Assembly (NCBI GenBank): GCA_028280525.1
Contig: JANQLR010000284.1
Coordinates: 1-32,498, forward strand
DNA length: 32,498 nt
Origin: Longimicrobiales bacterium
GTDB lineage: Bacteria; Gemmatimonadota; Gemmatimonadetes; Longimicrobiales; Gaopeijiaceae
Direction: 5' to 3'
Position 1 is the stretch's first letter, and the number at the start of each line of letters is the position of its first letter. The notes below the pieces were generated by a model. The model saw nothing but the letters and a program-made list of their open reading frames with translations. It was not told the origin of the DNA and did no database searches. The position numbers and the translations under genes are program-made. Shown piece after piece: positions 6,518 through 30,573 of this stretch.

Positions 6518-6536
6518 TCTACCCGCCGGAGAACTC

Positions 6537-8268: not shown

Positions 8269-8559
8269 CCGGTGCACTCCGTTTCGTTGAGCCGGCTCGG
8301 ACGCCTGGCGGTTGGAGGGGTGGCGAGGGCGCGTTCACGACGGGGCTCGCCTGTGTGCGTCTGAGAACCAATTATCGTTAGGGAAGGGTCCAGGTCGTCG
8401 CCACACCGGAGCGGAGTGCGTGTGGCGCCGGAGGGTTCGGCGCGCCGACTTCATGTCGAGGGGGGAAGTGATGCGGACGGGTGAGAATCGCGACACGCCG
8501 GCGGCCGTGCCTCCGTCCGGTCGATCTTTGACGGAGGCCACCGCCGGGGGCACGCACAG
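8269..8559. promoter_or_regulatory. Divergent intergenic region between the thioredoxin gene and the permease operon
   Basis: This stretch holds operator site 3 (8360-8379) and presumably both promoters. TATCGT at 8373-8378 could be a -10 for the permease operon, but no convincing -35 lies at the right distance. The 180 bases between the operator and the permease start are GC-rich with no clear gene. A long leader is therefore possible, but I could not assign a riboswitch. Confidence 0.5.
8360..8379 (+). promoter_or_regulatory. Candidate Zur/Fur-family operator (site 3)
   Basis: TCTGAGAACCAATTATCGTT has the same layout as the sites at 1020-1039 and 6153-6172. TGAGA, six bases, TATCGTT matches site 1 at 4 of 7 and 6 of 7 arm positions. 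It lies about 180 bases before the FecCD-type permease and 92 bases before the divergent thioredoxin gene. Confidence 0.45.
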
Positions 8560-9696: not shown

Positions 9697-9699
9697 CCG

Positions 9700-10737
9700 A
9701 TGTCGATGCTCCAACTCATCGATCTGTCGGTCGGCTATGGACGGGGAGAGCGTGCAACGGTCGTGGCGTCCGGGATCGACCGGCGACTGCACGCGGGGGA
9801 GCTGGTCTGCCTCCTCGGCCCCAACGGGGCGGGGAAGTCCACCCTGATGCGCACCGTCGCCGGGATGCAGGCGCCGCTGCGGGGCCGAGTCCTCATCGAC
9901 GACGGCGATGTCCACGCGATGGACGCCCGCGAACGCGCGAAGCTCCTCAGCGTCGTCCTGACCGACCGGGTCGAGGCCGGCCTGCTCACCGGATACGCGC
10001 TCGTCGGACTCGGGCGGTACCCGCATACGGGGTGGTCTGGGAAGCTCTCGGATCGCGACTGGGAGGTTGTCGAGGCGTGCATCGACCGAACCGGGGCCCG
10101 CGACCTCGCGCACCGGCACGTGAGCGACCTCTCCGACGGGGAGCGACAGCGGATCATGCTCGCCCGGGCTCTGGCGCAGGAGCCGCGCCTGATGGTCCTC
10201 GACGAGATCACGGCCTTCCTGGATCTGCCGCGGCGGGTCGATGCGATGCGCCTCCTGCGAAGGCTGGCCCGCGACACCGGCACGGCGATCCTCCTCTCCA
10301 CGCACGATCTCGACCTCGCGCTGAAGGCGGCCGATCAGGTCTGGCTCCTGCCGAGCGAGGGGCCCATGGTCGCAGGCGCGCCGGAGGACCTGGTCCTGAG
10401 CGGCGCCTTCGCCGCCGTCTTCGAGAGCGAGGGGGTCGAGTTCGACGCCCGCCTCGGGTCGTTCCAGCTCCACCGCAGATCGATCGCTGAGGTCGAACTC
10501 GTCGGGGGCGGGCTCGTCCGCGAGTGGACGGCCCGGGCGATCGAGCGACAGGGACTGGGCATCTGGGGCGGGCTGGGCGCGACACCGGGGATCCGCGTGG
10601 AGGTGCTCGACAACGGGGGAGGTTGGGAGCTGGAGATCGCAGGCGTCCGGGGTCGGGCGAGCTCGCTGGCCGATCTCGCGGAGCGGCTCCGCGGCGCGGA
10701 CGGCGCCCGGGACGCGGACGTCGAGGAGGCGCGATGA
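9700..10737 (+). CDS. FecE/BtuD-type ABC transporter ATPase with C-terminal extension
   Basis: This 345-residue ATPase drives the FecCD-type importer. Walker A is GPNGAGKST (40-48), the signature is LSDGE (144-148, a conservative variant of LSGGE), Walker B ends in LMVLDE (Asp168, Glu169) and the H-loop is STHD (His202). Typical FecE proteins are about 255 residues. Here about 85 extra residues form a small alpha/beta domain (VELVGGGLVREWTARAIERQ, WELEIAGVRGRASSLADLAE). Similar tails occur, as I recall, in metal-chelate ATPases of Bacteroidota; their role is unclear. The start follows the permease stop by three bases. The stop overlaps the start of the next binding protein (ATGA). Confidence 0.92.
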   Translation: MSMLQLIDLSVGYGRGERATVVASGIDRRLHAGELVCLLGPNGAGKSTLMRTVAGMQAPLRGRVLIDDGDVHAMDARERAKLLSVVLTDRVEAGLLTGYALVGLGRYPHTGWSGKLSDRDWEVVEACIDRTGARDLAHRHVSDLSDGERQRIMLARALAQEPRLMVLDEITAFLDLPRRVDAMRLLRRLARDTGTAILLSTHDLDLALKAADQVWLLPSEGPMVAGAPEDLVLSGAFAAVFESEGVEFDARLGSFQLHRRSIAEVELVGGGLVREWTARAIERQGLGIWGGLGATPGIRVEVLDNGGGWELEIAGVRGRASSLADLAERLRGADGARDADVEEAR

Positions 10738-11959
10738 GCCTCCGGGCGGAGAGGGCGGCTTTGGCGGGGTTCCTTCTCGCCGTCCTCGCCTGCGGAGGGG
10801 AGGAGACGGTGTCCAGGGGGGCGCCGGCCACCTCCGAGGCGCTTCCAACGCCCGCCGTTCCGTCCGTCGACTACGCGACCGGATTCCGCGTTGAGGCGGG
10901 GCCGGGGTACCGCGTCGTCTACGCATCCGCCGCCCCGGAGGCGTTGGAAGCTGGCGCCGAGCGAGAGTGGACGACCGCGCCCGATCGCATGGTCCTCGTA
11001 GCACGGGGGACCCGTCCGAGTCTTCCCTCGGAGCTCGAGACGCTCCCGCGTTTCGAAGTCCCTGTCGAGCGCGTGACCGTCAATCGCGACGCGGACGCGC
11101 TTCGCGTGAAGGCGCTCGACGCCCTCGACCGTCTCCGGGGGATCGGAGGCACAGGGATCTACGACGCGGACATCTCCGAACGGGTTCGTTCGGGCCGCCT
11201 CGGCGCGGTCGGCAGCGCGTTACACCGTACGACCAACACGGAGTTCCTACTCCTGGAAGAGATCGAAGCGGCCTTCTTCCGGGTGGCGAGCCTCGCCCAC
11301 GCTCAGCAGTTCGAGCGGCTGCGGGAGACGGGTGTGCCCGCTGTGCCCGTCTTCACCTGGGCCGAGCGCAGCTACCTCGGTCGGGCCGAGTGGCTGAAGT
11401 ACATCGCGCTCTTCCTTGGTGTCGAGGAGGAGGCCGATTCACTCTTCCGCGACATCGAGGCACGGCGGGATGCGCTCCTCTCGATCGTGGCCGACCAGCC
11501 CCCGGTGCCGGCCGTGTGGGCCTATCGATCCGGGGATCGATGGATCGTGCACCGGAACTCCCTCGAGTCCGAGCTGCTGCGGGATGCCGGGGGCGCGAAC
11601 GTCCTGGAGGATGCGGGCGCGGGCGTCTCCGAGGGACGCCGAGGCTTCACGGAGGGCGTTCCGATGACCGACGAGGAGTTCCTGATCGCGGCGCAGGAGG
11701 CCCGGTACTGGATCACCTGGGATCGCACCGACGCCGAGTGGCCTTCGCGCGCCTACCTGGAGCAGATCCCGGCCTATCGGGACGATCGGGTCTTCCACCA
11801 CCGGCTCCGACTACGCCCCGAGCAGGGGGCGACGATTGGTACGAGGGCGCCCAGGTCGACCCGACCGGGGTGCTCGCCGATCTGATGGCCCTCCTGCACC
11901 CGGACCGTCTCCCGGGGCACGATTTCGCATGGCTGGGGCCGTTGGGGCGGACGCGGTGA
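10734..11959 (+). CDS. Metal-chelate substrate-binding lipoprotein (paralogue 2), with a one-base frameshift
   Basis: This BtuF/FepB-like lipoprotein has lipobox LAVLAC (Cys20), IGGTGIYDADISERV in the first lobe and the connecting helix EWLKYIALFLGVEEEAD. The reading frame that starts at ATG 10734 goes out of register near 11824-11830, where a run of five G follows CA. It would then stop at 11885 with an unrelated tail. The conserved C-terminus (DDWYEGAQVDPTGVLADLMALLHPD) continues in the +2 frame to the TGA at 11957-11959. One extra G restores a 408-residue protein matching paralogues 1 and 3. The next gene starts with GTG overlapping that TGA, which argues the long version is the true one. 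The break is therefore a sequencing error or a very recent mutation; transcript slippage on the G run is a remote option. Confidence 0.8.
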
Positions 11960-13332
11960 GCCGCTTCACCCGTGCCCACGTCGTACACGCCCTCGGGGTC
12001 GTGCTGGTGGCGTGGGCGCTCCCGAGTGCGGGACAGGCGGTCCCCGAGCGCCTCGACGGTCTCGTGCTCGACGGTCGGCTCGAGGAGTGGGGCGAGCGCG
12101 CTCGCGGCGGGATCGCACGGACGCCCTCCGGACGGCACCTCGTCCTCCTCGCCCGGACCGAGAGTCCGATCCTCGCGCAGGCCGAGGGCACCCTCGCCGC
12201 CGTCTGGACCCCCGAGGACCCCGACCGCGAGGTGCGGTGGGACTTTCCGCGACGCCAGGGGTGGGGAGGACCGGACCCGCTCGTTCAGTCCGACATCGGA
12301 CTCGGCGTGCACCCCAACGTCCGCTCCTCCTCCTTCGAGCTGGCCTTCGAGGTCGGCGCTCTCGGACGCCGGCTCGGCGTCCGCCCCGGCGACGCGGTAC
12401 ACGTCCGCCTGCGTGACGGGGAGCGCACCCTGGTCGATCGCGAGATCGCGTGGCCCTCTCTCCCCTCTCCCCTGCCGGCGCAGGAAATCCCGGAGCGCTC
12501 GACGGGCGCGCTCCGCATCGTCGCGTGGAACCTCGAGAGCAACGCCCTGTTCGAGGCCGAACGGCGCCCTGCCATCGCCCGCGTCCTTGCGGCGCTCGAC
12601 GCCGACCTCCTCGTTCTGCAGGAGGTGTACGACTCGACCGCGGCCGTCGCCGGACGGGCGCTGGACACCCTTCTTCCGGGAGCCCTCGCCTGGCAGGCCC
12701 GCAAGGCGACCGACGTCCTTATCGCGGCTCGCAGCGAGCTGGGTCGCGGCCTCGACCTCGGCTACACCGACTGGGGTCGAGCGCTAGGGACGGTGTGGAG
12801 TGCTCCGGGCGGACCGGTCGTGGTCGTTGGGGTGCACCTCCCCTGCTGCACCGGCGGGGAGCCGCCCGCGGACCTGCGGCGCGCCGCCCTGCTCGAGGGC
12901 GTCGCCACCGTCGCACGCGCCCTCCCCCTCGATTCCGCCCCCGGGGCTCCCGCTCCGGTCCGTCTCGTCGTCGGCGACTTCAACCTCGTGGGCGCTGCGG
13001 ACGCGCTGGCCCCCCTGACGGAGCCGCGCGACGGAGACCTTCGCTTCACCGTGCTCGACGCCCCCCACCTCGACGGAGAGGAGACGCACACCTGGCTCCG
13101 TGCCGGCGGGCAGTTCACCCCCGGCCGGCTCGACTACGCCCTCGTCGACGCGGCCTCGGCCACCCGCATCGAACGCGTCTTCGTCCTCGACGACACCGAT
13201 CTGAATGTGGAGACGAGTGGCATCCGTCCCGGAGACGTCCTTCGCGCGAGCGACCACCTCCCGATCGTCGTCGACCTGCTCCCCGGGCCGGACGGAGCGC
13301 CCGACCACCCGCACCCGAGGAACGCGCCGTGA
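11956..13332 (+). CDS. Exported EEP-superfamily phosphoesterase with N-terminal beta-sandwich
   Basis: This 458-residue protein has a signal peptide (HVVHALGVVLVAWALPSAGQA). Residues of about 30-170 resemble a CBM9/DOMON-like beta-sandwich (LDGLVLDGRLEEWGE, AAVWTPEDPDREVRWDF). An endonuclease/exonuclease/phosphatase domain follows. Its catalytic motifs are IVAWNLESN, LLVLQEVYD, VVGDFNLVG, RLDYALVDA and SDHLPIVVD, the usual metal-binding and catalytic Asn, Glu, Asp/Asn and Asp-His set. It should hydrolyse phosphodiester or phosphomonoester bonds in the periplasm or outside the cell. GTG 11956 overlaps the stop of the previous gene and GTG 13329 overlaps its own stop, so it is fully embedded between two binding-protein genes. 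Why a phosphoesterase is here is unknown; releasing metal or phosphate from a ligand is speculation. Confidence 0.82.
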   Translation: MSRFTRAHVVHALGVVLVAWALPSAGQAVPERLDGLVLDGRLEEWGERARGGIARTPSGRHLVLLARTESPILAQAEGTLAAVWTPEDPDREVRWDFPRRQGWGGPDPLVQSDIGLGVHPNVRSSSFELAFEVGALGRRLGVRPGDAVHVRLRDGERTLVDREIAWPSLPSPLPAQEIPERSTGALRIVAWNLESNALFEAERRPAIARVLAALDADLLVLQEVYDSTAAVAGRALDTLLPGALAWQARKATDVLIAARSELGRGLDLGYTDWGRALGTVWSAPGGPVVVVGVHLPCCTGGEPPADLRRAALLEGVATVARALPLDSAPGAPAPVRLVVGDFNLVGAADALAPLTEPRDGDLRFTVLDAPHLDGEETHTWLRAGGQFTPGRLDYALVDAASATRIERVFVLDDTDLNVETSGIRPGDVLRASDHLPIVVDLLPGPDGAPDHPHPRNAP

Positions 13333-14558
13333 AGATGCCCCTGGATCGAACCGCCGTCGGCCTGCTCGCGTTGGTGTTGAGCGCCGGGGGCTGCCAATCG
13401 GAGGCCGGTGACCGGCCCGGTCCCGTCCCGGGCGGCGAGGCCACCGCCTCGACCGCGGACGCGAGCTGCCCCACACCGCGCCACGCCACGCACTTCCGAG
13501 TGACCTGCCGGGAGGGCGTGCGGGTCGTCGAGACCTTCGGAGAGATCACCTCCTTCCGTAGCCGGAACGAGGTCGAGGCGGTGAGTGATGTCGTGGTTCT
13601 CGTACCGCGCGGAGAGGCGATTCCGCCCTTCGTCTCCGAGCTCGACGACGCGCACGTGATCCGGGTCCCGGTGGAGAGCTACGCCGTCAACAACGACGAC
13701 ATCATGGGGCTGACGATGGATCTCGGTCTAGCCGACCGGATGCGGGCCGTGGGCGGACGGTCGATGTACGACGACGGGATCCGGGCCCGGGTCGAGGCGG
13801 GGGAGCTGGCCGAGCTGGGCTACTCGTGGCACCTTCCGCCCGACCTCGCCGTCCTCCTGGAGCGGGCACCCGAGGCCACCTTCCTGGCGATGGATTCGCC
13901 GCACAACGTGCCGGGGCTGGGACGCTCCCGGGAGATGGGCCTGCAGGTCGCCCCCACCTTCGTCTGGGCGGAGCGAACGGTGCTCGCCCGCGCAGAGTGG
14001 CTCCTCTTCTTCTCGATGTTCTTCGCGATCGAGGAGGAGGCACAGGCTCGCTTCGATGCGATCGAGGAGCGCTACCAGGCGCTCCGGGATCGGGCCGCAG
14101 CGGTCCCGGAGCAGCCCACCGCGATGTGGGGCTACTACGGGGGCTCGGGAGTCTGGTTCGTCATGACCAACAACCTCGAGTCCGGGCTCCTCGAGGACGC
14201 GGGAGCCCGGAACATCTTCGCGAACGATGGCGAGCTGCGCGCGGACGGAGAACGGTTCACCGGTGAGCGTCTACTGGTGGAGGGTGCCGGAGCCGAGCAC
14301 TGGATCATCGGGGACATCCACCAGGCCGATCTTCCGGCTGGCGACTATCTCGACTCCTTCGTGGCGTGGCGGGAGGACCGTCTCTACCACAACTACCTCC
14401 GTACCAAGTGGGAGCTGAACGGCTACGATTGGTACGAGGGCGCGACGGGGCGTCCGGACGAACTCCTCGCGGATCTCATCCACCTGATCCACCCCGATCT
14501 CCTCCCCGACCACGAGCTGAAGTTCATGGGTCGGTTCGACAGGGAGGCAGGGCGATGA
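13329..14558 (+). CDS. Metal-chelate substrate-binding lipoprotein (paralogue 3)
   Basis: This BtuF/FepB-like lipoprotein of about 409 residues has lipobox LSAGGC near residue 22. It carries VGGRSMYDDGIRARVEAGEL in the first lobe, ERTVLARAEWLLFFSMFFAIEEEAQARF as the connecting helix, and GYDWYEGATGRPDELLADLIHLIHPDLLPDHE at the C-terminus. It is clearly paralogous to the proteins encoded at 4807 and 10734. GTG 13329 overlaps the preceding TGA and has GAGGA six bases upstream; ATG 13335 is an alternative start. Its stop overlaps the ADOP start (ATGA). Several acidic and aromatic residues in the putative cleft differ from its paralogues (for example YYGGSGVWFVMTNN), which suggests a different ligand or ligand form. 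It probably docks with the same permease. Confidence 0.85.
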   Translation: MKMPLDRTAVGLLALVLSAGGCQSEAGDRPGPVPGGEATASTADASCPTPRHATHFRVTCREGVRVVETFGEITSFRSRNEVEAVSDVVVLVPRGEAIPPFVSELDDAHVIRVPVESYAVNNDDIMGLTMDLGLADRMRAVGGRSMYDDGIRARVEAGELAELGYSWHLPPDLAVLLERAPEATFLAMDSPHNVPGLGRSREMGLQVAPTFVWAERTVLARAEWLLFFSMFFAIEEEAQARFDAIEERYQALRDRAAAVPEQPTAMWGYYGGSGVWFVMTNNLESGLLEDAGARNIFANDGELRADGERFTGERLLVEGAGAEHWIIGDIHQADLPAGDYLDSFVAWREDRLYHNYLRTKWELNGYDWYEGATGRPDELLADLIHLIHPDLLPDHELKFMGRFDREAGR

Positions 14559-18237: not shown

Positions 18238-18543
18238 ATGGCCAAGAAAGCCAAGATCGAAAAGAACAACAAGCGGATCGCGCTCGCTGCGCGGTTTGCC
18301 GAGAAGCGCGCCGCCCTCGTGGCCGTGGTGAAGGATCCGGAGGCCACGCCCGACGAGAAGCGCGAGGCGATGGCGAAGCTCCGCAAGCTTCCCCGCGACT
18401 CCGCCGCGGTGCGTGTCCGTAACCGGTGCAACTTCACCGGTCGTCCGCGGGCGTACAACCGCGACTTCGGCATGTCCCGGATCGCCTTCCGCGAGATGTC
18501 GCTTCAGGGGCTCATCCCCGGCGTGCGGAAGTCCAGCTGGTAA
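18238..18543 (+). CDS. rpsN: Ribosomal protein S14, long zinc-independent (C-) form
   Basis: This 101-residue small-subunit protein starts [20 protein letters not shown] and ends with [17 protein letters not shown] and [13 protein letters not shown]. The long length and the single cysteine show that it is the C- form, without the four-cysteine zinc site of the short S14 (about 61 residues). It stands alone, outside the spc ribosomal operon where S14 is normally encoded, as expected for an alternative paralogue used in zinc shortage. A strong hairpin terminator follows. The ATG at 18238 has GGGAG about a dozen bases upstream. Regulation by zinc is inferred from the family and from the L28 and transporter neighbours. 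Confidence 0.92.
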
Positions 18544-18696: not shown

Positions 18697-19167
18697 TCAG
18701 CCGATCTCGACATCCTGAACGCCGGTCTGCGAGCGACGCGTCTCGACCCGACCGCGCATCAGGTCCTTCACCGCCTCCACGCGCGGGATCGCCACGAGGT
18801 GAAGGATCGGCTCGGACCGGTCGGCGGTGTGGAGTCGCAGGTGACCGCGACCCACGAGCCGCAACAGGAAGGGCTTCGCCACGCGGTAGTCGCGGACGCG
18901 GTAGAGCTCGACCTCGTCCAGGTTGCGGCTGAAGACACCCACGTACCGCTTCACCCGTTCGCTGGTCAGCTCGTACCGGGTGGAGTGCGTCATCAGCGCC
19001 CGCTTCCCGACGGCGAAGACGGGGAGCGCCAGCCCGAACCAGACGTAGGCATGCGTCACGGCGGCGACCCCGCCGATGATCCCGCACCAGAGGGCCTGCC
19101 CCGCGAAGTGACCGGCATTCGTCCACTGCGAGGGCCGGCCGACCCAGATCGTCTCCTCGCCGCTCAT
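18697..19167 (-). CDS. Membrane protein with bacterial PH domain (bPH_2/YdbS-like)
   Basis: This 156-residue protein begins EETIWVGRPSQWTNAGHF. It has two hydrophobic segments (about 25-58: LWCGIIGGVAAVTHAYVWFGLALPVFAVG), then a PH-like beta domain (YELTSERVKRYVGVFSRNLDEVELYRVRDYRV, GHLRLHTADRSEPILHLVAI). This is the usual layout of YdbS/DUF304 proteins, whose function is not well defined. Its ATG overlaps the stop of the large upstream gene (ATGA), so the two are translationally coupled and may interact at the inner membrane. Confidence 0.85.
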   Translation of the reverse strand: MSGEETIWVGRPSQWTNAGHFAGQALWCGIIGGVAAVTHAYVWFGLALPVFAVGKRALMTHSTRYELTSERVKRYVGVFSRNLDEVELYRVRDYRVAKPFLLRLVGRGHLRLHTADRSEPILHLVAIPRVEAVKDLMRGRVETRRSQTGVQDVEIG

Positions 19168-21887
19168 CGGTAGATGAGTCCGTCCAGGTCGGGTGGGCCG
19201 GCAGAGACCCCGTCGTACTGGAGGAGGTCGTACAGAACGAGGTCGGCGGGGTCTTCACTCGCGCGGATCTCCCGGTACCGGGCGACCCAGCGCTCCGGGA
19301 GCGACGTCTCCAGAGCCGAGTCCGCCGCACCCGGGGTGAGGAGCCATCGATAGCGGTACGCCAGGACGCCGCCCCCTTCGCTCCGCAGGCACTGCGAAAC
19401 CGTGCCCGCGAAGTGACGGCAGTGCTGCGTCAGCAACCTCGCCATCGCGGGGCGCCGGCGGTCGCGCACCAGTCTGCCGAGCGCCGCCTGCACCGTCAGC
19501 TCGGCGAGGGCGACCGGCATCTCCGGGTTGTCGATCGCGAGCGACAACGCACCGACATCGAGAGTCGGCACGGGTGCGGCCGGACCCGGGTTCGGGGACA
19601 TCCGCCCCTCCGGCGCGCCGAAGTAGATGATCCCCTCGGGGTCGTTGAAGAAGGCCGTCGTGCCGTACGTCGAGGCCGCGGCCTGGAAGAGATCCCAGAT
19701 CGGCCGGTAGGCGTCGGCGAAGGCGTTGCCGCCGAGATCGAACTGGATGCGCGCGTTGCAGATCCAGCCGCCGTCGGGAGCCCAGATCGTCCGGGTACTC
19801 CGGTCGAGGATCCGGTTGTCCTGGACCGTCGTCCACGTCCGATCGATCGCGAGCGTCCGACGCGCCTCGCAGTGCGTCACCGAGAAGTCGGTCAGTCGCG
19901 CCGTGAAGCTCCCGAAGAGGGCGCGGAAGATGTCGCCCAGGCCGCTCATCCGGCAGAAGGCCGCCGCGACGCCCCCCGCCGCGCCGTTGTCCGCGAGCGC
20001 CCCGCAGAACTGACCCATCTCCCCCTCCGCCCCGGGGTCGTTTCGCACCGCGCCCATGTAGCGCTGAAGCAGGTCGTCGACGCCGGCGCACAGCATCAGC
20101 CAGGGCACGACGGTCCGTGGTCCGGCCGGCACCACCCGGTTGGTCGGCTCCTCGCCGCACCTCCACCCGCTGGTGAACTCGAGGAGGTGTGCGCGGTCGT
20201 TCGCCAGACCGACGAGGTGAGCGGCGCGCGGCAGCTGGCGGTCTCCGGTCACGGCGAAGTACCGGTCGACCTCCGCCGTCAGCGCCCGCGCGTTCCCGGC
20301 GCGGGCGAGCGCCTCGGCGACGACGGGCCACTCCGCCTCGAGGTCGGAGGCGCGACGCGCCCGCAGCCGAGAGACCAGGTCCCGCGTGGGCTCGCTCGAG
20401 CGAAAGCGCTCGGCCTCGATCTCCGCCGCGACCCGCGCCCCCTCCAGGAAGGGACTCTCCGCCTGGTCGAGCCGAGCGACCCGCGCCGCGAGCCGATCCA
20501 CGGCGGCGGCTTCGAGCTCGCCGATTCGCCGGTCGAGTCGCGCACCTTCGCGTTCCCAGGCCTCCGGCGAGACGAAGCTCCTCATCTCCTCCCAGCCGAT
20601 CGCGAGCGAACGGGTGCGTCCGGTGGTGGCGGCGTCGGAGGCCGCCCGGCTCTGCCCATCCGCGGCGGCCGCGGCCCGGCGGGCTCGGCGAGCGGCGGCC
20701 GCTCGGGCGGCGCGGGCGGAGGAGCGGGCCTCGCGGACCTCGTCTCTCTCCTCCTCGGCCACCGAGACGATCGCCTCTCCCTGGATGTCCGGCGGCGTCA
20801 CCATCGCCCAGCGCGCCTCGCGCGTGTCCCCCGCGGCGAGGAGCGCGTCCACGTGCGCGGCGAGGATGGCGTCGCCCGAGGCGGACATGACGTTGGCCCG
20901 GATCCGCTCGAAGGACGCGCGATCCGCGGGCCAGAGAAGGAGGTCCCGCTGCGCGTCCTCGATCGTCGAGACGTTCTCCCAGGTCGTGCCCCACGCCGTC
21001 CAGAAGGAGCTCTCGGAGGCGGGGAGTGCGGCGAGTCGGGCCACTTCGTCGTCGAAGGCGGCGCGGGCGGCGTTGATCTGCTCGACCGCGGTCTGAAAGC
21101 GGACCACGTTGCCGCGTCCCAGCGCCCCGTGGATGTGGTCCCACGCCCCCCGCTGCCCGCCCCCTCGCATCGACAGCGGCAGGATCTCACGCCGACACTT
21201 CGTGGCCTTCTCGTCGAAGTTCCTGCGGTCCTTTCGCGAGAGGTCGGCGTACCTCTTCTCCGCCACCGGCTCGAAGCGGCTGTCGGAGAGGAGGACGAGC
21301 GCGGCGATGCGCCGATCGCCGCGCGGCCCCTCGGGGAAGGCCTCCTCGTACTGCCGGAGCCACCGCGCGAAGACGTAGCACCACTGCCGGTCCCCGCGCG
21401 CGCTGCGCCAGGTTCGGGTCGCGCTCTCCTCCCAGTCGCGCATCGCGTCGGCGTAGTCCTCGACGATGCCGCGGGAGCGGCGCTCGTCTCGTGCCAGGTC
21501 GACCGACACGAGCGAGGCGTTGCTCGGGAGCTCCCCGATCAGCCGCTGCTGCGCGGCGTCGAAGTAGAGCTCGCCCCCACGTCCCCGCCCCTGCCGCAGC
21601 ACCATCAGGCCGGTCCCGGGATCGTACTCGCCGAAGAAGTCCCGGTGCTGATTCCGGCCGGTCTCCGCGCGCATCCACACGGTGCCATCCGGATTCCCGC
21701 GCAGATCGAAGTTGATCTCCTGCGCGGCGATCAGGCTCGTGTAGGCGCCGCGGTAGCGGCCGAGGACCGATTCGAGCGGAGCCTGTGCGGCGGTCCCCTC
21801 GGCGAGCGGGAGGAGCACGGCAAGCGTGAGGAGCGCGAGGGGTCGGACACCTCGGTGGCGAGGAGACGGAGAGACGTTCACGGACAT
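19164..21887 (-). CDS. Large secreted protein of unknown function
   Basis: I do not recognise a family for this 907-residue protein. It has a signal peptide (GVRPLALLTLAVLLPLAEGTAAQ). A small N-terminal beta-rich domain follows (about 38-110: LGRYRGAYTSLIAAQEINFDL, GTVWMRAETGRNQHRDFFGEY), which could be a lipocalin- or repeat-like sandwich. The middle is helical and Ala/Arg/Glu-rich, likely coiled coil (EERDEVREARSSARAARAAA). A C-terminal half carries at least eight spaced cysteines (WRCGEE, LMLCAG, QFCGAL, AFCRMS, THCEAR, WICNAR, QHCRHF, SQCLRS), which suggests disulfide bonds. The start is ATG 21887 with GAGG upstream; ATG 21926 is possible. It is divergent from the histidine kinase gene. 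Confidence 0.75.
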   Translation of the reverse strand: MSVNVSPSPRHRGVRPLALLTLAVLLPLAEGTAAQAPLESVLGRYRGAYTSLIAAQEINFDLRGNPDGTVWMRAETGRNQHRDFFGEYDPGTGLMVLRQGRGRGGELYFDAAQQRLIGELPSNASLVSVDLARDERRSRGIVEDYADAMRDWEESATRTWRSARGDRQWCYVFARWLRQYEEAFPEGPRGDRRIAALVLLSDSRFEPVAEKRYADLSRKDRRNFDEKATKCRREILPLSMRGGGQRGAWDHIHGALGRGNVVRFQTAVEQINAARAAFDDEVARLAALPASESSFWTAWGTTWENVSTIEDAQRDLLLWPADRASFERIRANVMSASGDAILAAHVDALLAAGDTREARWAMVTPPDIQGEAIVSVAEEERDEVREARSSARAARAAAARRARRAAAAADGQSRAASDAATTGRTRSLAIGWEEMRSFVSPEAWEREGARLDRRIGELEAAAVDRLAARVARLDQAESPFLEGARVAAEIEAERFRSSEPTRDLVSRLRARRASDLEAEWPVVAEALARAGNARALTAEVDRYFAVTGDRQLPRAAHLVGLANDRAHLLEFTSGWRCGEEPTNRVVPAGPRTVVPWLMLCAGVDDLLQRYMGAVRNDPGAEGEMGQFCGALADNGAAGGVAAAFCRMSGLGDIFRALFGSFTARLTDFSVTHCEARRTLAIDRTWTTVQDNRILDRSTRTIWAPDGGWICNARIQFDLGGNAFADAYRPIWDLFQAAASTYGTTAFFNDPEGIIYFGAPEGRMSPNPGPAAPVPTLDVGALSLAIDNPEMPVALAELTVQAALGRLVRDRRRPAMARLLTQHCRHFAGTVSQCLRSEGGGVLAYRYRWLLTPGAADSALETSLPERWVARYREIRASEDPADLVLYDLLQYDGVSAGPPDLDGLIYR

Positions 21888-21959
21888 CGGCGGCCTCGGA
21901 AGATGCGGGAGGGCTTCACACGGCATCTTCAATGCTCCGATCCGGCTTCGGCGCCGACC

Positions 21960-21977
21960 ATCCCGTATTCGCGGGAT
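21960..21977. promoter_or_regulatory. Perfect 6-6-6 inverted repeat between divergent genes
   Basis: ATCCCG, six bases (TATTCG), CGGGAT form an 18-base perfect dyad. It lies centrally in the 150-base gap between the large secreted protein and the sensor kinase. It could be a regulator site for both; the downstream NarL-type regulator is an obvious candidate, but there is no direct evidence. Confidence 0.4.
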
Positions 21978-22037
21978 ATTGTTCGGGCCGGCGTGCCGGG
22001 CGTACGATCGCACCCCACGCCGCCCCCGCGATGACCG

Positions 22038-25000
22038 ATGCGCCCACGGATCCCCCTCGTTCTCGGTGTACTGACCGCCCTGATCGGGGCGCCCGACGCG
22101 AGTGCCCAGGATGCGCTTCCCCCGCTCTCCGAGTACCAGGTCCGACGCTTCCTCCCGGAAGACGGCCTCCCCGTCCGATGGACCGGAGGACTGTCGCAGT
22201 CGCCCAGCGGAGAGCTGTTCGTCGCGACGGGGGACGGGCTCTATCGCTTCGACGGCTATCGCTTCTCGTCGGAGGGCCTGGACGCCTTCGCAGGGGTCTT
22301 CCTGCTCCAGGACCTTCTCTTCACCGAGGCGGGCCGGCTGTGGCTGCGCGCGTCCGACCGTCGGATCGGCTTCCACGACGGGCGCCGCGGGGCGCTTCTC
22401 GACGCCGGACCGGACGGCATCGACGCGGTCTTCAGCTTCTCTTCGACCCCGGGCGCGACCTGGCTCGCCACCGAGAAGGGGTTGATGTGGCTGCCGGTCG
22501 GGACGTCCGAACCGGTCCCGGTCGAGGCGGATCGAGTGCTGGACGACCTGAGCGTGGCCATCGTCGCCATGCCGAACGGGGAATGGCTCCGCATCGGAGA
22601 GGAGCGCCTCGCCCGCGTGGAGCGGGATGCGGCCGGTGCGCCGACGGCCTTCCATCCGTTCGGCCCGCGCTACCGGATCCGGTCGCCGAATCGGTCGTCG
22701 TACCTCCCCGACGCCGCCGGACTCTGGCTCTTCACCGAGGACGGCGTCCTCCGGGTCCGCGATGGCGCGCTTCGCGACGAGGCGGTGGAGGTGCGGGGAG
22801 GTGGGGGGCGGGTTCTGCCCTCGGAGATCGATTGGCTCCGCGATCGCTCGACCGCGATCGGCGCGAGCGCCGCGGGCGGCCTCGAGCTTCCGCCGGTGGC
22901 GCTCCCCGAGGGTGGGACGGCGGACCGCGCCTCCCTCGCGCTCCGCGCCCGGACCGGCGATCTCTGGGCCGTCATGACCAGCCCCCACGACGAGCGCCAG
23001 CGCAGCCACCTGATTCGCATTCGGGAGGGGGCGGCCGAGCGGATCGTCCTCTCGGACTGGGCGCCCGCGACCGTCGTGAACGGGCTCCTCGAGGACCACG
23101 AGGGCAGCATCTGGATCGCGACCGACCAGGGCGCGCTCCAGCTGGTCCCCCGCAGAGCACGCGCACTCGACGCAGCCCAGGGAGCCGTCGCGTCCTTCAC
23201 GACCGCCGTCCTGGCCGAGGACGATCGGCTCTGGATCGGTTCGTGGGGCGGCGGTCTGCAGCGATTCGAAGGCGGGGTGTCGTCGACCTTCCTGCGCGAG
23301 GATGGCCTCCCCTCGGACCGGATTCGCGCCCTCTTCCGTTCGAGCGACGGCACCCTCTGGGTCGGGACCTCGAAGGGCGCGGCGCGGCTCAGGCAGGGGA
23401 GGTTCGAGGCAGCTCGACACGCCCCCGACATGGCGGATCCGGGCACCCTCGAGGTCCGGGCCCTCGCGGAGACCCCGGACGGGAGCCTCTGGATGGGCGG
23501 TGCAGCGGGGCTGCGCCGCCGGAGCGCGGACGGCTGGGTGCCCGCGGCGGACCCGGCGCTCGAGGACGTCGACATCTGGATGCTGCACACCGACGCGGAG
23601 GGCGTGCTCTGGATCGGAACGCGCAACGGCCTGCATCGCTTCGCCGACGGCGTGTTCGAGCGGGTGGCCGACCCCGATGCACCGGCGGGCGACCTGGTCG
23701 TCTCGGCGTACGAAGAGCCCGACGGCACGATCTGGTTCGGGAGCTACGGGAGCGGGCTCTACCGTCACCGCGCCGGCACCTTCGCGAACGTCCGCACCGA
23801 CGACGGCCTGCACCACGCGGGCGTCTGGAAGATCCTCCCGGACGACGCCGGCGGGCTCTGGATGTCGAGCGACCGGGGCGTCTTCCGGGTCGAGCGCTCG
23901 ACGCTCCATCGGGTCGCGGACCGGGCACCCGGCGCGATGCTTTCCCCCGTCGTCCTTCAGGAGGCCGAGGGTCTCCCCAGTCGCGAGTCGAACCGCGCCT
24001 CCCCCGCGGGCGCGCGCCTGCCCGATGGTCGCCTCGTCTTCAACTCTCAGGACGGCCTCTCGGTCATCGACCCGGAGGTGGCCCAGGGCGCACTTCCGCC
24101 GCCCGTGACCCGGATCCGGTCCGTCCTCGCCGACGGCGAACCGATCCCGGACGGCGCCGACCGCCCGACCGTGCCCGCGGGGACCCGACACCTGAAGTTC
24201 GAGTTCTACGCCCTGTCCTACCGAGCGCCGAATCAGATCCGGTACCGCTACCGGCTCGAAGGCTACGACGACGCCTGGTACGACGTGGGCAGCGACCGGC
24301 AGGCCGCCTACACCAACCTCCCACCCGGCGACTACACCTTTTCCGTCCAGGCGGCGGGACCGGGCGGCCAGTGGCAGGCCGGCATCTCCTCGCTTCCGGT
24401 TCGTCTTTCGCCCTTCTTCTGGCAGCGGGGACCGGTGCAGCTCCTCGGCCTGGTACTCGTCCTCGCGGGTCTGGTCGGCGCCTGGCGCTACCACCTGGAG
24501 CGCCGTCTGCAGATGGAGCGGATGCGACTCCGCATCGCCGCGGACCTCCACGACGATGTCGGCTCCAGCCTTAGCTCCATCGCGCTCCTCGCGGAGATGC
24601 TCCGCGCACGACCGAGGTCGGAGCGTGTCGAGCGGGATCGGCTGGAGCGCATTCACCTCGCCGCCTCCGACACCATCGAATCGCTTCGGGAGATCATCTG
24701 GCTCGTCGATCCCAAGCACGGGAACACGACCGAGCTGATCGCGAAGCTCCGGAGGATCGCGGCGGATCTCCTCGAAGGGACCGACTTCGAGTTCCACGTC
24801 GCCGAGGTCGAGGAGGCCCCGCTCTCGATGGCCGTGATGCGAAGCGCCCTCCTCATTCAGAAGGAGGCGCTCCACAACGTCGTGCGTCACGCAGGGGCGG
24901 ACGCCGTCCAGATCGAGGTGTCGCAGCGACGTGGCATCCTGCGCCTGGACGTTCGAGATCGGGGCCGCGGCTTCGACCCCGAAGCGTCACACGGCGGCTA

Positions 25001-25106
25001 CGGCCTCGAGAACATGCGGCGTCGAGCGAAGGAGGCCGGCGGGCGACTCGCGCTCGAGTCCGGGGACGGCGGGACGCGGATCGTCTTCGAGGCCAGGATC
25101 GCGTGA
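22038..25106 (+). CDS. Two-component sensor histidine kinase with periplasmic propeller (Reg_prop, Y_Y_Y, HisKA_3)
   Basis: This 1022-residue sensor has a signal peptide or N-terminal anchor (IPLVLGVLTALIGAPDASAQ). A periplasmic double propeller carries many Reg_prop blades (LWIGSWGGGLQRF, LWVGTSKGAARLRQG, LWIGTRNGLHRFADGVF, IWFGSYGSGLYRHRAGTF). The Y_Y_Y domain is at about 720-790 (YRYRLEGYDDAWYDVG, YTNLPPGDYTFSVQAAG) and one membrane helix is at about 800-818. The dimerisation/phosphoacceptor domain is HisKA_3 type (ADLHDDVGSSLSSIALL, His838). The HATPase has N-box Asn947 (EALHNVVRHAG) and DRGRGFD. It would sense an extracellular or periplasmic ligand and phosphorylate the NarL-type regulator encoded 93 bases downstream. 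Related hybrids often sense carbohydrates; the ligand here is unknown. Confidence 0.93.
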   Translation: MRPRIPLVLGVLTALIGAPDASAQDALPPLSEYQVRRFLPEDGLPVRWTGGLSQSPSGELFVATGDGLYRFDGYRFSSEGLDAFAGVFLLQDLLFTEAGRLWLRASDRRIGFHDGRRGALLDAGPDGIDAVFSFSSTPGATWLATEKGLMWLPVGTSEPVPVEADRVLDDLSVAIVAMPNGEWLRIGEERLARVERDAAGAPTAFHPFGPRYRIRSPNRSSYLPDAAGLWLFTEDGVLRVRDGALRDEAVEVRGGGGRVLPSEIDWLRDRSTAIGASAAGGLELPPVALPEGGTADRASLALRARTGDLWAVMTSPHDERQRSHLIRIREGAAERIVLSDWAPATVVNGLLEDHEGSIWIATDQGALQLVPRRARALDAAQGAVASFTTAVLAEDDRLWIGSWGGGLQRFEGGVSSTFLREDGLPSDRIRALFRSSDGTLWVGTSKGAARLRQGRFEAARHAPDMADPGTLEVRALAETPDGSLWMGGAAGLRRRSADGWVPAADPALEDVDIWMLHTDAEGVLWIGTRNGLHRFADGVFERVADPDAPAGDLVVSAYEEPDGTIWFGSYGSGLYRHRAGTFANVRTDDGLHHAGVWKILPDDAGGLWMSSDRGVFRVERSTLHRVADRAPGAMLSPVVLQEAEGLPSRESNRASPAGARLPDGRLVFNSQDGLSVIDPEVAQGALPPPVTRIRSVLADGEPIPDGADRPTVPAGTRHLKFEFYALSYRAPNQIRYRYRLEGYDDAWYDVGSDRQAAYTNLPPGDYTFSVQAAGPGGQWQAGISSLPVRLSPFFWQRGPVQLLGLVLVLAGLVGAWRYHLERRLQMERMRLRIAADLHDDVGSSLSSIALLAEMLRARPRSERVERDRLERIHLAASDTIESLREIIWLVDPKHGNTTELIAKLRRIAADLLEGTDFEFHVAEVEEAPLSMAVMRSALLIQKEALHNVVRHAGADAVQIEVSQRRGILRLDVRDRGRGFDPEASHGGYGLENMRRRAKEAGGRLALESGDGGTRIVFEARIA

Positions 25107-25199
25107 ACGCGGGATGGCGCGGCCCGGTCCCCAGGCGCACCGTCCGATACGCCCGCCGCCCAACCACGAGTCCTCTCTCCGCCGGACTGGAAGCGCGCC

Positions 25200-25841
25200 G
25201 TGAGTGACGCCCCGATTCAGGTATGGATCGTCGAGGACAACGTCCATCTCCGCGACACCATCCGGGATCTCGTGGACGAGGCCCAGGGGATGGCGTGCGC
25301 GCTCGCAGCGGGGTCGTGGGAGGAGGCGCTCGACGCGCTCGGTCGAGGTGACGTCCCGCAGGTCGTCCTCACCGATCTCGGACTGCCGGGGATGAGCGGG
25401 ATCGAGGGCATCGCCCGGATCCGCGATCGATCGCCCAGCTCCGCCGTGGTGGTCCTGTCCGTCCACGAGGAGGACGACCAGGTGTTCGACGCCCTATGCG
25501 CAGGAGCGGCCGGATACCTTCTCAAACCGGCGTCGTCCGAACGGATCGTCGAGGCGATCCGCACCGCGCACGGAGGTGGTGCTCCGATGAACGCCTTCGT
25601 CGCGCGAAGGGTCCTGCAGACCTTCGCGGCGCAGCGGCCCGAGAACGACTACGGCCTCACGAAGCGAGAACGCGAGATCCTCGAGCTCCTCGCCGAGGAG
25701 TACAGCCAGAAGGAGATGGCGGCGCAGCTCTTCCTGAGCCCGCACACCGTCGACACGCACCTCCGGAACATCTACGCGAAGCTCCACGTGCGGACGCGTG
25801 CGGGGGCTGTGGCCAAGGCGCTGCGGGAGGGGCTGCTCTGA
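25200..25841 (+). CDS. NarL/FixJ-family response regulator
   Basis: This 213-residue regulator has a receiver domain with acidic pocket VEDN (Asp13), phosphoacceptor Asp59 (LTDLGLPGMSG), Ser87 and Lys109 (GYLLKP). A LuxR-type helix-turn-helix follows (LTKREREILELLAEEYSQKEMAAQLFLS, HTVDTHLRNIYAKLHV). It is the cognate partner of the HisKA_3 kinase upstream. GTG 25200 gives the normal receiver start VSDAPIQVWIVED, with a GGAAG ribosome site nearby. Its targets are not known; the divergent secreted protein is a plausible one. Confidence 0.93.
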   Translation: MSDAPIQVWIVEDNVHLRDTIRDLVDEAQGMACALAAGSWEEALDALGRGDVPQVVLTDLGLPGMSGIEGIARIRDRSPSSAVVVLSVHEEDDQVFDALCAGAAGYLLKPASSERIVEAIRTAHGGGAPMNAFVARRVLQTFAAQRPENDYGLTKREREILELLAEEYSQKEMAAQLFLSPHTVDTHLRNIYAKLHVRTRAGAVAKALREGLL

Positions 25842-26237: not shown

Positions 26238-28949
26238 GTGACTTCTGGGCCCTTCCTGCGCCTCCTGGGTCCACCGCGACTATTCCACGCGATCCGTTCG
26301 GACCTCGCTCCACTCTTGGGTCCTTCCAAGCCTCTCGCACTCCTGTCGCTTTTGGCTCTGGAAGTTCGTGTCACTCGCGCGAAGGCGACCCGCCTTCTCT
26401 GGCCGACCCATCCGAGGGATCGGGCTCGAGCATCGCTACGGAGTGCGCTGTCGCGACTTCGGGAGCGCGTTTCGGAGAACCTCGTCGAGGACCACGGAGA
26501 CCATCTCGTGTTGCGGCAGGGGATGATCGTGTGCGACGTGACAGCTCTCGTCCAAGGAAGACTGCTTCCGCCGCTACCGGCCATCGCCGCCAGCGTCGAG
26601 GGTCGCTTCTTCGATGGCGGGTGGGGCACATACGGTCGCGCATTCGAGGCTTGGACAGAGGAACGCGAGGACGCTCTCACCCCGACGCTGGTACGGTCGG
26701 TGGATCGAGCGTACACGGCATACTCCCGGGCAGATCGCCATCGCGATGCGCTCTTCCTGGCCCGTGCAGCGCTGCGGCTCCTTCCCGATACCGAGGCGGG
26801 CATCGAGCGCTACGCCAAGGCCTCGGTGAAGGCGGGGTGCCCTGAACTCGGGCTCCGCGAGCTCGACGAGTTTGAGATGCGACGGAGAGTCCAGCTGGAC
26901 GAGGAGCTGACGCCGCACATCGAGAGACTACGCGCAACGCTGACGGAGGCTGCCGGTAATCAGGATGCCACTGCCGAGCTTCTCGCCGAGATCCCGGTAG
27001 CCAAGGGCCCGATGCTTCAGAGTACCGAGGGCCCTATCGACGCGAGCGACCGGGTGGGTGACCGATTCGCCGCGCCCCCCGGCCGGCGGAGTATCGGCGG
27101 AAGACCCATCATCGGCGTTCTCCTTCTACTCACCGGGACGTTGTCCGCGGTCTGGGCCCTGGTCGACCGACCACGGCCTGTTCATCTGATCGGTGCGGAT
27201 GCGAACAGAAGACCTGTTCGTATTCAGGTGCACCCCGGCCGCGCCGTGGTCCAAGGCCTTCTGGCTGATCTCCCGGGCGCGCAGTTCGTCTCAGGCGCGT
27301 CGGGTGAGCTTCTCGCGTATGCGGCACACGTCGAACCGCACGGTCACGACCTGGTGGTGCTTCGGCCCGGTCACCCACCTGATACCGTCCTGAGCGACCG
27401 GGCCGACGAGGTCCCCAAAGCCCTATCTCCGAACGAGCGTTCGCTGGTCTACTTCTTCGGGAAGCAGCTCGAAGACGGCACGTACTTTGGAGCGTTCAGG
27501 ATCGTCGACCTCGATTCTGCGGAGAGTTCTCGGGAGCTGATCCGAGTGGATGATGGCTACAGCTCTTGGGCCGATTGGTCACCGGATGGGACCAAGATCG
27601 CTGTCATGGCCGTTCGGCACTCCGGCCCAGAGCTCTACGTCGTGAACCCGGACGGCACCATCCTGTTCAGGGAGCGGTGGCTGGAAGGCCGGGACGTCGC
27701 ATGGTCGCCCGATAGTCGGTTCCTGGCTGTGCTCGCGGATGAGGCCGGGCAGGGCGGGATACTCGACGCCTCGGATTGGTCGATCCTGCGACCTTCGCCC
27801 GCGCTCCGAGGCGGACACTCTCCACTATGGGTTTCCAGCAGACGGCTGCTCTATCTCGCGAGGGGCAACGAACCCGGTCGGACGCTCCGACTCTACGATC
27901 TCCTTGAGGGGCGCGACACCCACGTCGCCGATGCCGCTGGACTCACCGAACTCATTGCGCTCGACCCCGGGTCCTGGGATCGGTGGGGATCCGAGGTGCG
28001 ACTTCAGGCAATTGGCGCGGTGGATTCAGAGCTCGGCGACATCCGCCTTCGCGGTCCCCGTCTGGTTGGAGTCGGCGAGACCTTCCAGCTCACTCCGGAG
28101 GCCGAGTCCCGTGCAGGGACCTCACCCGTACCGGTGCCCGACCAGACTCGGTGGATCGTCACCAACCGGGAGCTCATCGCGCACAACGGTCCCAACCGGT
28201 TCAAGGCACTCGCACCGGGGCGGACGAAGGTCGAGTTCTCCTATGCGGGCTGGATGAATGACTCGGTCCTGATCGAAGTGCGCGAGGTGTTGTCCAGCGC
28301 TGCACTTGCGCCGGTCTTCGAGGAGTCTTGGGCCACGAACGGATTGAACAGGTGGGTCCTCGTCGGCGAGCCGCGGCCAACCATCGTGCCGGCGGACCCA
28401 TCGGGACCCTCCCGAATGCACCCGAACGGTGACCAGAACTTCTTGAGTGGCACTCTTTCCCGCAGAGCGTTCACTGCGGTCCAGGGCCTGACGGTGAGCT
28501 TCCGCGCTCGGCTCGCTACCGCGGGTGCGCCCTCCGACAACCTCTTCGCGTCGATCCTGCCGGCAGGGGATGTCGGTGAGTGCCGTGATCACGCGGTTCA
28601 TCCCATTGCTCAGTTCGTGGTCCACAGAGGAGAGGGGCGCACGCTCCTGCAGTACGGGGGGCCGGCAGACCATCTGAGGGTCGAGCTGCCGATGATTCCG
28701 GATCCGGGTCCATGGCAGGACTTCGCGCTCCAGATCTGGCCTGACGGTGCGGTCTGGCTCCTCATCGGCGGCAGGCTGTACGGGCGACTCGATCCACGCC
28801 CCCCGCCACCAGCCGTCTGTCTGTTCCTTGGCGGTCGCGGTGAAGACTCCCGGCTCGAGTTCGGCACGGTCCGCGTATACGAAGGCACTCGGTTCAGACT
28901 CGAGGAGGCTCCGCGGACCGAAGCGGGGACGGGCGAGCAGGCCTCCTAG
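26238..28949 (+). CDS. SARP/BTAD transcriptional regulator with membrane anchor and propeller, Big-like and lectin-like sensor domains
   Basis: This is a 903-residue one-component regulator. Residues of about 1-100 form a winged-helix (FLRLLGPPRLF, LLSLLALEVRVTRAKATRLLWP, ASLRSALSRLRERV). Residues of about 110-245 are BTAD-like TPRs (YAKASVKAGCPELGLRELDEF). A single membrane helix lies at about 290-311 (IIGVLLLLTGTLSAVWALV). The remaining 590 residues should be outside the membrane. They include TolB/PD40-type blades (YSSWADWSPDGTKIAVMAV, GRDVAWSPDSRFLAVLA), a Big-2-like module (TRWIVTNRELIAHN, FKALAPGRTKVEFSYAG) and a concanavalin/LamG-like sandwich (LTVSFRARLA, FGTVRVYEGTRF). GTG 26238 is the start. 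The base composition looks lower in GC than the zinc island. The ligand and the target genes are unknown; the neighbouring lipoprotein is a likely target. Confidence 0.82.
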   Translation: MTSGPFLRLLGPPRLFHAIRSDLAPLLGPSKPLALLSLLALEVRVTRAKATRLLWPTHPRDRARASLRSALSRLRERVSENLVEDHGDHLVLRQGMIVCDVTALVQGRLLPPLPAIAASVEGRFFDGGWGTYGRAFEAWTEEREDALTPTLVRSVDRAYTAYSRADRHRDALFLARAALRLLPDTEAGIERYAKASVKAGCPELGLRELDEFEMRRRVQLDEELTPHIERLRATLTEAAGNQDATAELLAEIPVAKGPMLQSTEGPIDASDRVGDRFAAPPGRRSIGGRPIIGVLLLLTGTLSAVWALVDRPRPVHLIGADANRRPVRIQVHPGRAVVQGLLADLPGAQFVSGASGELLAYAAHVEPHGHDLVVLRPGHPPDTVLSDRADEVPKALSPNERSLVYFFGKQLEDGTYFGAFRIVDLDSAESSRELIRVDDGYSSWADWSPDGTKIAVMAVRHSGPELYVVNPDGTILFRERWLEGRDVAWSPDSRFLAVLADEAGQGGILDASDWSILRPSPALRGGHSPLWVSSRRLLYLARGNEPGRTLRLYDLLEGRDTHVADAAGLTELIALDPGSWDRWGSEVRLQAIGAVDSELGDIRLRGPRLVGVGETFQLTPEAESRAGTSPVPVPDQTRWIVTNRELIAHNGPNRFKALAPGRTKVEFSYAGWMNDSVLIEVREVLSSAALAPVFEESWATNGLNRWVLVGEPRPTIVPADPSGPSRMHPNGDQNFLSGTLSRRAFTAVQGLTVSFRARLATAGAPSDNLFASILPAGDVGECRDHAVHPIAQFVVHRGEGRTLLQYGGPADHLRVELPMIPDPGPWQDFALQIWPDGAVWLLIGGRLYGRLDPRPPPPAVCLFLGGRGEDSRLEFGTVRVYEGTRFRLEEAPRTEAGTGEQAS

Positions 28950-29046: not shown

Positions 29047-30573
29047 GTGAACCGAAGCACACTTGCGCTCGTAATCTCGGTGGTGGCGGGCGCCGCCTGC
29101 GAGCCCCCAAGCCCTTCATCCCCGGTCGATCCGGATCCCTCGCCGGAGCCTGTCGCGTTCGAAGAGCTGGCCACCCAAGTGGCCGGGGCGATCATAGGCA
29201 CTGTTCAGGCGAAGACGTTTCACGCTGGCGGTGCGGGCAGATACCGAGAGATCAAGACGGGGATCGCGGGCTCTGGCCGCACGGACGTGCAGCCAATGAA
29301 CGGTCTGTCGAGCGTGAGCGGCGGGGCACTTGTCGTTTCGACAGACGCCACGCTCGGCCTCTATACGTCGGGCGGCGAGGGAATCGGCGCCCGCGGAGAA
29401 GGAGACTCGTCACAGACCCGGAAGAGCGTCGAGGGACCCGACGAATCGCTCACCTTCGAACTCGTTCCCGGTCTGGAGGGCCAGATCGTCGAGTTCGAGT
29501 TCGCCGCGAAGCTATACAACGGCGATGCGATCATCATCGCGGAGGCGGGTGTGGAGGGCTACACCGTCCGAAGCGATACACTCCAGTTCGCCGCAGCCAG
29601 CGAACGGAGAGTCCTGTTGGCGTACCACGACCGACCGGTGGATCGGATTACCTTCAGGGTCCCGGTCGGCCGAGTCTCGTTCACGTGGCATCGTCGGTGG
29701 GCGGCCATCCGGCTCGGCGATGTGATCGCGTACGAACCGCCGGTGGCGTATCCACCCATCGTGTTCAGCCGGTCATTCGGCCAAGGGGCTCGGTCCATCT
29801 GGGCCGTAAACCCGGACGGGAGCGGCGAGACGGTGATGCTCGATGTGCCCGGGGTGGACTATGGTACGCCACGATGGGAGTCGAATGGTGAGACCCTCCT
29901 CATCAGCTCCGACCAGGCTGGATCGGAAGATGTCTATCGTTTCGATCCGGCTACGGGCCAGATCACGCAGCTCACCTTCGACCCGGCCAAGGAGTACGGA
30001 GGGACCACATCTCCCGATGGGTCCATGATTGCGTTCACGAGGACCCGGAATGGTGTGGGGAAGATCGTGATCATGAACCCGGACGGCACCGGGCAACGTG
30101 AGATCACCGATGGCTCCTTTCGCGCTTCGAACCCGGAGTGGGCTCCCTCCGGGGAGTGGATTGCCTTCCTTTCGCAGCCCCTCGGCGGCGGCAACAATCA
30201 GGTTGCGCTGATCCGACCCGATGGCAGCGAGCTTCGCGTCTTGAACACTCCGATCATCGAGGGGAACAACCCCGCCTGGTTACCGGACGAGGAGTCGCTC
30301 ATCGTCTCGGCCTTTCCCTTCATCGGTGCGCAGTGGGGGCATCTCTACAGAGTGCGGATCTCGGACTCAGCGGTGACTCAGCTCACGGATGACACCACCG
30401 TCGCGGATGGGGACCCCATGACCGCTCCCGACGGAAGCACGATCGTGTTCAACCGTTCACCCTCGGGAACCAGCATATGGAGTCTCTATCTCCTGGACCT
30501 CGGCACCAACGAGGTCACCTACCTCGCTGGTGATTCGAACGACTTCTTGTCTTGGCCAGACTGGCGGCGCTAG
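29047..30573 (+). CDS. TolB-like beta-propeller lipoprotein
   Basis: This 508-residue lipoprotein has lipobox VVAGAAC (Cys18). A 200-residue N-terminal beta-rich domain follows (TLGLYTSGGEGIGARGEGDS, LVPGLEGQIVEFEFAAKLYN). A six-bladed TolB/PD40-type propeller completes it (SIWAVNPDGSGETVMLDVPG, DVYRFDPATGQITQLTFD, KIVIMNPDGTGQREITDG, LYRVRISDSAVTQLTDD). GTG 29047 is chosen because of TGGAGG nine bases before it. It follows the SARP-like regulator by about 100 bases and shares propeller style with the sensor half of that protein, so it may be its target or ligand carrier. The actual function is unknown. Confidence 0.8.
   Translation: MNRSTLALVISVVAGAACEPPSPSSPVDPDPSPEPVAFEELATQVAGAIIGTVQAKTFHAGGAGRYREIKTGIAGSGRTDVQPMNGLSSVSGGALVVSTDATLGLYTSGGEGIGARGEGDSSQTRKSVEGPDESLTFELVPGLEGQIVEFEFAAKLYNGDAIIIAEAGVEGYTVRSDTLQFAAASERRVLLAYHDRPVDRITFRVPVGRVSFTWHRRWAAIRLGDVIAYEPPVAYPPIVFSRSFGQGARSIWAVNPDGSGETVMLDVPGVDYGTPRWESNGETLLISSDQAGSEDVYRFDPATGQITQLTFDPAKEYGGTTSPDGSMIAFTRTRNGVGKIVIMNPDGTGQREITDGSFRASNPEWAPSGEWIAFLSQPLGGGNNQVALIRPDGSELRVLNTPIIEGNNPAWLPDEESLIVSAFPFIGAQWGHLYRVRISDSAVTQLTDDTTVADGDPMTAPDGSTIVFNRSPSGTSIWSLYLLDLGTNEVTYLAGDSNDFLSWPDWRR

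Follow-up and report, generated by a model that had tools for sequence, protein, structure and literature searches.

Two groups of proteins come closest to the gene pair described here. The first comprises secreted proteobacterial proteins of Paracoccus, Shinella and Ensifer, all of them unnamed: P0005 (WP_230378896.1) and P0006 (WP_205295343.1) of Paracoccus, two proteins of 938 and 941 residues with the central motif present in both, P0008 of Shinella (686 residues), and P0007 of Ensifer (WP_275027758.1; 518 residues), in which the central domain is absent. The beta domain that opens these proteins also appears as the extracytoplasmic end of Ser/Thr kinases encoded at L078:1585-3324 in Streptomyces and at L085:3483-5388 and L086:3585-5355 in Frankia, the latter two being recognized as kinases by eye and carrying this domain at the C-terminal end. 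The second group is represented by stand-alone bPH_2 membrane proteins of plasmids. As to the function of PH-domain proteins, DdE and DdF of Enterococcus are required for the export of a leaderless bacteriocin (PMC8657885).

Here, we consider a window of 32,498 nucleotides from a Longimicrobiales bacterium, where the original prediction, made from the DNA letters alone, placed an unrecognised secreted protein (P0001) next to a bPH_2 protein (P0002). The positions of both genes and of the putative parts of P0001 are collected in Table 1.

Table 1. Location of P0001, its putative structural parts and P0002 in the window.
Feature	Positions	Strand	Residues	Basis
P0001 gene, putative exported protein	19164..21887	minus	907 aa	coding statistics
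P0001 putative signal peptide	21783..21887	minus	1-35	by eye and hydropathy; ends TAAQ
P0001 putative N-terminal beta-rich domain	21498..21770	minus	~40-130	low-confidence model, six strands; hhalign
P0001 C-x5-W...F-E-P-V...C domain	21183..21410	minus	~160-235	BLASTP, profile, hhalign, pattern
P0001 Ala/Arg-rich stretch, putatively helical	20463..20747	minus	381-475	composition, low-confidence model
P0001 Cys-bearing C-terminal region, 8 Cys	19389..20159	minus	577-833	sequence
P0002, stand-alone bPH_2 membrane protein	18697..19167	minus	156 aa	PF03703; ATGA overlap with P0001

Coding Status and Architecture of P0001

Since the window has 70% GC and long open frames are cheap under such composition, the coding of P0001 was tested. 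GC content at its three codon positions is 0.72/0.55/0.90, neighbor genes being alike, and this order holds in every full 100-codon block. Codon log-odds calculated with a model trained on ten other genes of the window gave +339.5 for the P0001 frame and +90.3 for the runner-up, which is the exact antisense, with negative values for the remaining four frames. The open frame of 873 residues on the opposite strand (19413-22034) has codon-position GC that is the mirror image of that of P0001. P0001 is a genuine gene. The predicted reading frame and its stop/start junction with the bPH_2 gene are both confirmed, the former by these codon statistics and the latter by the ATGA shared by the P0001 stop and the P0002 start (..CCGATGAGC..).

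The N-terminus of the protein resembles, by eye, a Sec signal peptide with the hydropathy peak at residues 16-35. Ten cysteines are found at positions 170, 231, 577, 600, 628, 645, 673, 710, 823 and 833; residues 1-576 contain only the first two, both belonging to the central signature described below, so that 8 of 10 fall into the C-terminal part. A beta-rich N-terminus is consistent with two single-sequence AlphaFold2 models, one of the whole protein and one of residues 36-260, and the proposed coiled-coil middle corresponds to an Ala/Arg-rich stretch (34% A and 20% R over residues 370-430), modelled as a helix at residues 381-475 with low confidence. With pLDDT of 39.9 and 47.2, respectively, both models were too poor for use and were discarded. 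Structure prediction, suggested earlier as a check, thus delivered low-confidence models only, and Foldseek with the one of residues 36-260 yielded no hit at E ≤ 0.001, the top rows being assorted folds.

Search for Relatives of P0001

Neither Pfam nor NCBIfam contains a match to P0001 at E ≤ 1, an enzyme or adhesin family included; nothing significant was found in PADLOC, PDB or PHROGs, where the single row had E 0.52. The statement that the protein cannot be assigned to a family therefore proved right for every library tried. At E ≤ 1e-3, relatives were absent from 5 other genomes of the genus, from 153 other genomes of the order (154 with its own) and from 60 other genomes of a class sample (61 with its own) partly overlapping with the genomes of the order. 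Pattern scans of 84,980 GTDB species genomes and of viral contigs, both reaching close relatives only, revealed none, and no relative was found in plasmids and phages. The order was also searched with a 300-residue N-terminal query devoid of the signal peptide, resulting in 25 non-self matches at E ≤ 1; of four that were translated, three looked by eye like antisense frames and one like a beta-propeller protein, and these four were taken as chance. Judged by these searches, P0001 looks like an orphan present in one searched genome only.

Comparison With the Paracoccus and Shinella Proteins

By eye, P0001 resembles secreted proteins that have a G-x-Y-x-G-x-Y start, an F-x-P-V motif and late cysteines. 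Two consensus-like queries, used only for the retrieval of real records, led to a protein of Skermanella (P0003) and a Streptomyces Ser/Thr kinase (P0004), both with the beta domain, and to the two Paracoccus proteins; the Shinella and Ensifer proteins were reached from these records. The two Paracoccus proteins and P0003 have no match in Pfam at E ≤ 1; in NCBIfam there is none for P0005 and P0006 and one row for P0003 (E 0.077), below its cut-off. The layout of the Shinella protein, as seen by eye, includes a signal-like start, one beta domain, the signature, helices and a Cys-bearing C-terminus. A genome scan added the two Frankia kinases and a further copy, from Paracoccus versutus (L083:3001-4266, L084:5001-6212), which looks broken, with one match spanning two short annotated genes, and was for this reason omitted from the domain profiles. 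The number of sequences behind these profiles is 3 for M, 4 for C and 8 for B.

For the central domain, BLASTP of P0001 against P0005 gave E 0.003 as a single comparison, and 12 of 4000 shuffles and 1 of 459 decoys taken from real frames did at least as well as P0001 in the HMMER profile score, though these shuffle figures, like all those that follow, overstate the link because the family was chosen after the resemblance had been noticed by eye. With hhalign, residues 140-260 aligned at E 1.4e-4 (probability 52), and the score of 28.6 compares with a shuffle maximum of 18.0, none of 300 shuffles being as good. The signature C-x5-W-x(15-40)-F-x-P-V-x(20-26)-C occurs in P0001 at 170-231, and its pattern turned up in 5 of 200,000 shuffles and in none of the 459 decoy frames. 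Among 90 loci compared, it was confined to the 3 that are copies of P0001 itself, two Paracoccus proteins and one Shinella protein, and it was absent from the Ensifer protein. The second signature cysteine, lying beyond the region that entered the profile alignment score, is located 23 residues past F-E-P-V in P0001 versus 24 in the family, as counted by eye.

For the beta domain, the tests diverge. P0001 contains LGRYRGAY and misses the cysteine of the family motif G-x-W-x-G-x-Y-x-C; hhalign found none of 300 shuffles as good at a probability of only 7, and the HMMER score was unremarkable, with 156 of 4000 shuffles and 11 of 459 decoys doing as well. The family's C-terminal domain, with four cysteines and V-T-K-x-x-C, fails the profile tests in P0001 and is similar by eye only in spacing: HMMER gave no match, and 121 of 300 shuffles were equal or better in hhalign, as were 209 of 300 for this domain in the ordered three-domain test. 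The ordered sum of three domain scores was reached by 0 of 300 window-shuffles, 0 of 200 full shuffles and 0 of 98 real frames, the latter being the subset of the 459 decoys with lengths of 500-1400 residues.

At the level of the entire family, a search of its own genome with the profile of four proteins missed P0001 at E ≤ 0.1, and hhalign of a longer core reached a probability of only 3.7. Applied to the 61 class genomes, the four-protein alignment gave nothing convincing (4 genomes with matches of E 0.015-0.09). No match was found for family alignment A3 in viral contigs or for P0008 in phages. A PDB row for the four-protein alignment, the photosystem II extrinsic protein (E 0.0067), covers the helical part and was taken as an effect of composition. 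The sensitive profile search proposed for this protein thus supports its central domain and fails for the C-terminal domain and for the whole-family profile. P0001 is a probable, very distant relative of the Paracoccus/Shinella family, and it is called a relative rather than a member because its C-terminal domain fails the profile tests.

The Adjoining PH-Domain Gene

Identification of P0002 as a bPH_2 protein was borne out by PF03703 (E 9.5e-10, 39 bits against the Pfam cut-off of 22); in PHROGs it matches phrog_3707 (E 9.8e-9). A hydrophobic segment precedes the domain, with the hydropathy peak within residues 30-54. No match was found in any of the 57 other genomes of its bacterial family, and 75 plasmid records match P0002, 54 of them predicted to be conjugative. 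The best reach ~38% over the full length, for example, 38.6% identity over 99% of the length for proteins of Providencia plasmids, and in the alignment of six proteins of this type motifs are kept along the whole length. Judging by sequence, P0002 falls within a family of stand-alone PH proteins that is frequent on conjugative plasmids. In four annotated plasmid neighborhoods (Pseudomonas, Rts1, Aquimarina and Klebsiella), the PH gene is not directly preceded by any P0001-sized gene on the same strand; upstream lie an efflux adaptor encoded on the opposite strand, a DUF2726 gene in two cases and a small hypothetical gene. A fifth record carries no annotation.

The proposed check on conservation of the P0001-P0002 pair found it in a single genome among those searched, with no relatives of P0001 in the 153 other genomes of the order and none of P0002 in the 57 of the family, and gave no support for a conserved pair. 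Since the P0002 family is distinct and widely shared, the two genes are unlikely to be an old and fixed pair. The proposal that the partner gene suggests a membrane-associated complex found no support, as the pair was seen once and the plasmid relatives of P0002 whose neighborhoods were read adjoin other genes. By the positive-inside rule, the PH domain would be expected on the cytoplasmic side and P0001 in the periplasm, leaving almost no P0002 loop for contact. From the role of DdE and DdF in bacteriocin export, transport or envelope protection would be a reasonable guess for P0002.

Genomic Surroundings

Divergently from P0001, a Reg_prop/Y_Y_Y/HisKA_3 sensor kinase and a LuxR-type response regulator are encoded at 22038-25841 (+), which could control P0001 and P0002. 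In other genomes of the genus the best kinase matches of useful length are 37% identical, and four fetched neighborhoods of its relatives contain neither P0001 nor P0002. On the other side, beside P0002, a gene for ribosomal protein uS14 (18244-18543, +) stands alone among non-ribosomal genes; it may be a second copy, of the metal-free type. Its best relatives, at 72%, 68% and 61%, belong to its own family and genus, which mildly argues against the contig being foreign contamination. A uS14 match is present in 34 of 38 genomes, its own included, and extends across all 99 residues in only 3 of the 37 others (61-72%); neighborhoods of these relatives also contain neither P0001 nor P0002. Genes at 744-14558 (+) encode a TonB receptor, FecCD permease, ABC ATPase and Peripla_BP_2-like binding proteins, the latter numbering three by eye; this is a cluster for the uptake of a metal, heme or cobalamin, apparently with several binding proteins for one permease. 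The 903-aa protein encoded at 26238-28949 (+) has a PD40 propeller match and starts, by eye, like a BTAD regulator; its alignment with the PD40 protein encoded at 29047-30573 is weak.

Discussion

The reading that we give about an even chance considers P0001 as a very diverged relative of the Paracoccus/Shinella proteins, acting as a periplasmic binder or scaffold and encoded by an accessory gene that was acquired with P0002 or beside it. The protein would be exported by the Sec pathway to the periplasm, where it is probably disulfide-bonded. It would share the central domain with the family and probably also the beta domain at the N-terminus; helices and a C-terminal region of its own come next. 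Its function would most likely be that of an extracytoplasmic binding or scaffold protein, whose beta domain may bind an envelope component or a small ligand, presented by the helical part. The occurrence of this domain on the outside of actinobacterial kinases suggests a sensing or binding role. Translation of P0001 and P0002 may be coupled by the ATGA overlap, and the two genes were probably gained together or next to one another.

The possibility that P0001 is a lineage-restricted orphan, whose Cys-Trp-FEPV likeness to the family is a coincidence found by looking, appears less probable and still deserves attention. The family was picked post hoc, whole-profile scores are weak, the C-terminal domain is unsupported, and the protein is without relatives across 154 genomes of the order and 61 of the class; however, the signature with its Cys spacing seldom arises in shuffles (5 of 200,000), no shuffle of 300 equalled the central-domain hhalign score, and the two parts follow in the same order.

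We consider improbable a dedicated envelope complex with P0002 as inner-membrane anchor and P0001 as its periplasmic partner, perhaps under the divergent kinase and regulator. The ATGA overlap, the joint absence of both genes from sampled relatives and the adjoining Reg_prop/Y_Y_Y histidine kinase with its LuxR-type regulator are in line with such a complex, but P0002 relatives elsewhere adjoin other genes, the pair was seen once, and the topology expected for P0002 leaves it almost without a periplasmic part. It is very improbable that P0001 is an adhesin or degradative enzyme diverged past recognition, since neither type of profile matches it and Foldseek of a low-confidence model found nothing at E ≤ 0.001, even though the large size, signal-like start, cysteines and neighboring Y_Y_Y-type sensor kinase would suit such a protein.

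Returning to P0001 as a diverged relative of the Paracoccus/Shinella proteins, a broader and rather doubtful extension is that the beta and Cys-Trp-FEPV domains make up an unrecognised mosaic superfamily of extracytoplasmic ligand-binding modules, distributed over several phyla in large periplasmic binders or in the outer domains of Ser/Thr kinases. P0001 would then be its most distant branch so far, recruited locally, together with a mobile PH protein, to form an envelope module of two genes. In kind, P0001 is ordinary, a putative accessory exported protein, and it draws attention mainly by pointing to an unnamed domain that secreted proteins have in common with the ectodomains of kinases. 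If the preferred reading is true, an apparent orphan acquires a family, and a domain not covered by any Pfam or NCBIfam model in the scanned proteins links secreted proteins of large size to the extracytoplasmic parts of bacterial Ser/Thr kinases, whose ligands may then be searched for through either of them. The neighboring PH gene would then be a mobile accessory unit and not part of an old complex.

Compared with described systems, P0002 is 34-42% identical in full-length alignment to plasmid stand-alone bPH_2 proteins, such as that of IncT plasmid Rts1 (WP_200129352.1), and has in common with them the motifs ELYRV.DY...P and R..VE..R...GVR, whereas the plasmid genes have other partners; on Rts1 and p33Kpn22-2, for example, DUF2726 is encoded upstream. 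P0001 begins its putative beta domain like the actinobacterial Ser/Thr kinases (Streptomyces P0004 and Frankia L085 and L086), with G-x-W/Y-x-G-x-Y, and differs from them in having neither the kinase domain nor the cysteine in the motif, this match coming from hhalign only. Unlike the Paracoccus/Shinella family, P0001 lacks the beta-domain cysteines, possesses an Ala/Arg-rich stretch, places the last two family-like cysteines 37 residues apart instead of 9-11 and has a C-terminal domain without a profile match to that of the family. With the Paracoccus, Shinella and Ensifer proteins it shares a signal-like start, a putative N-terminal beta domain, a putatively helical middle and four late cysteines, the first two of which are 17 residues apart in both P0001 and P0005, and with those of Paracoccus and Shinella the C-x5-W...FEPV...C domain as well.
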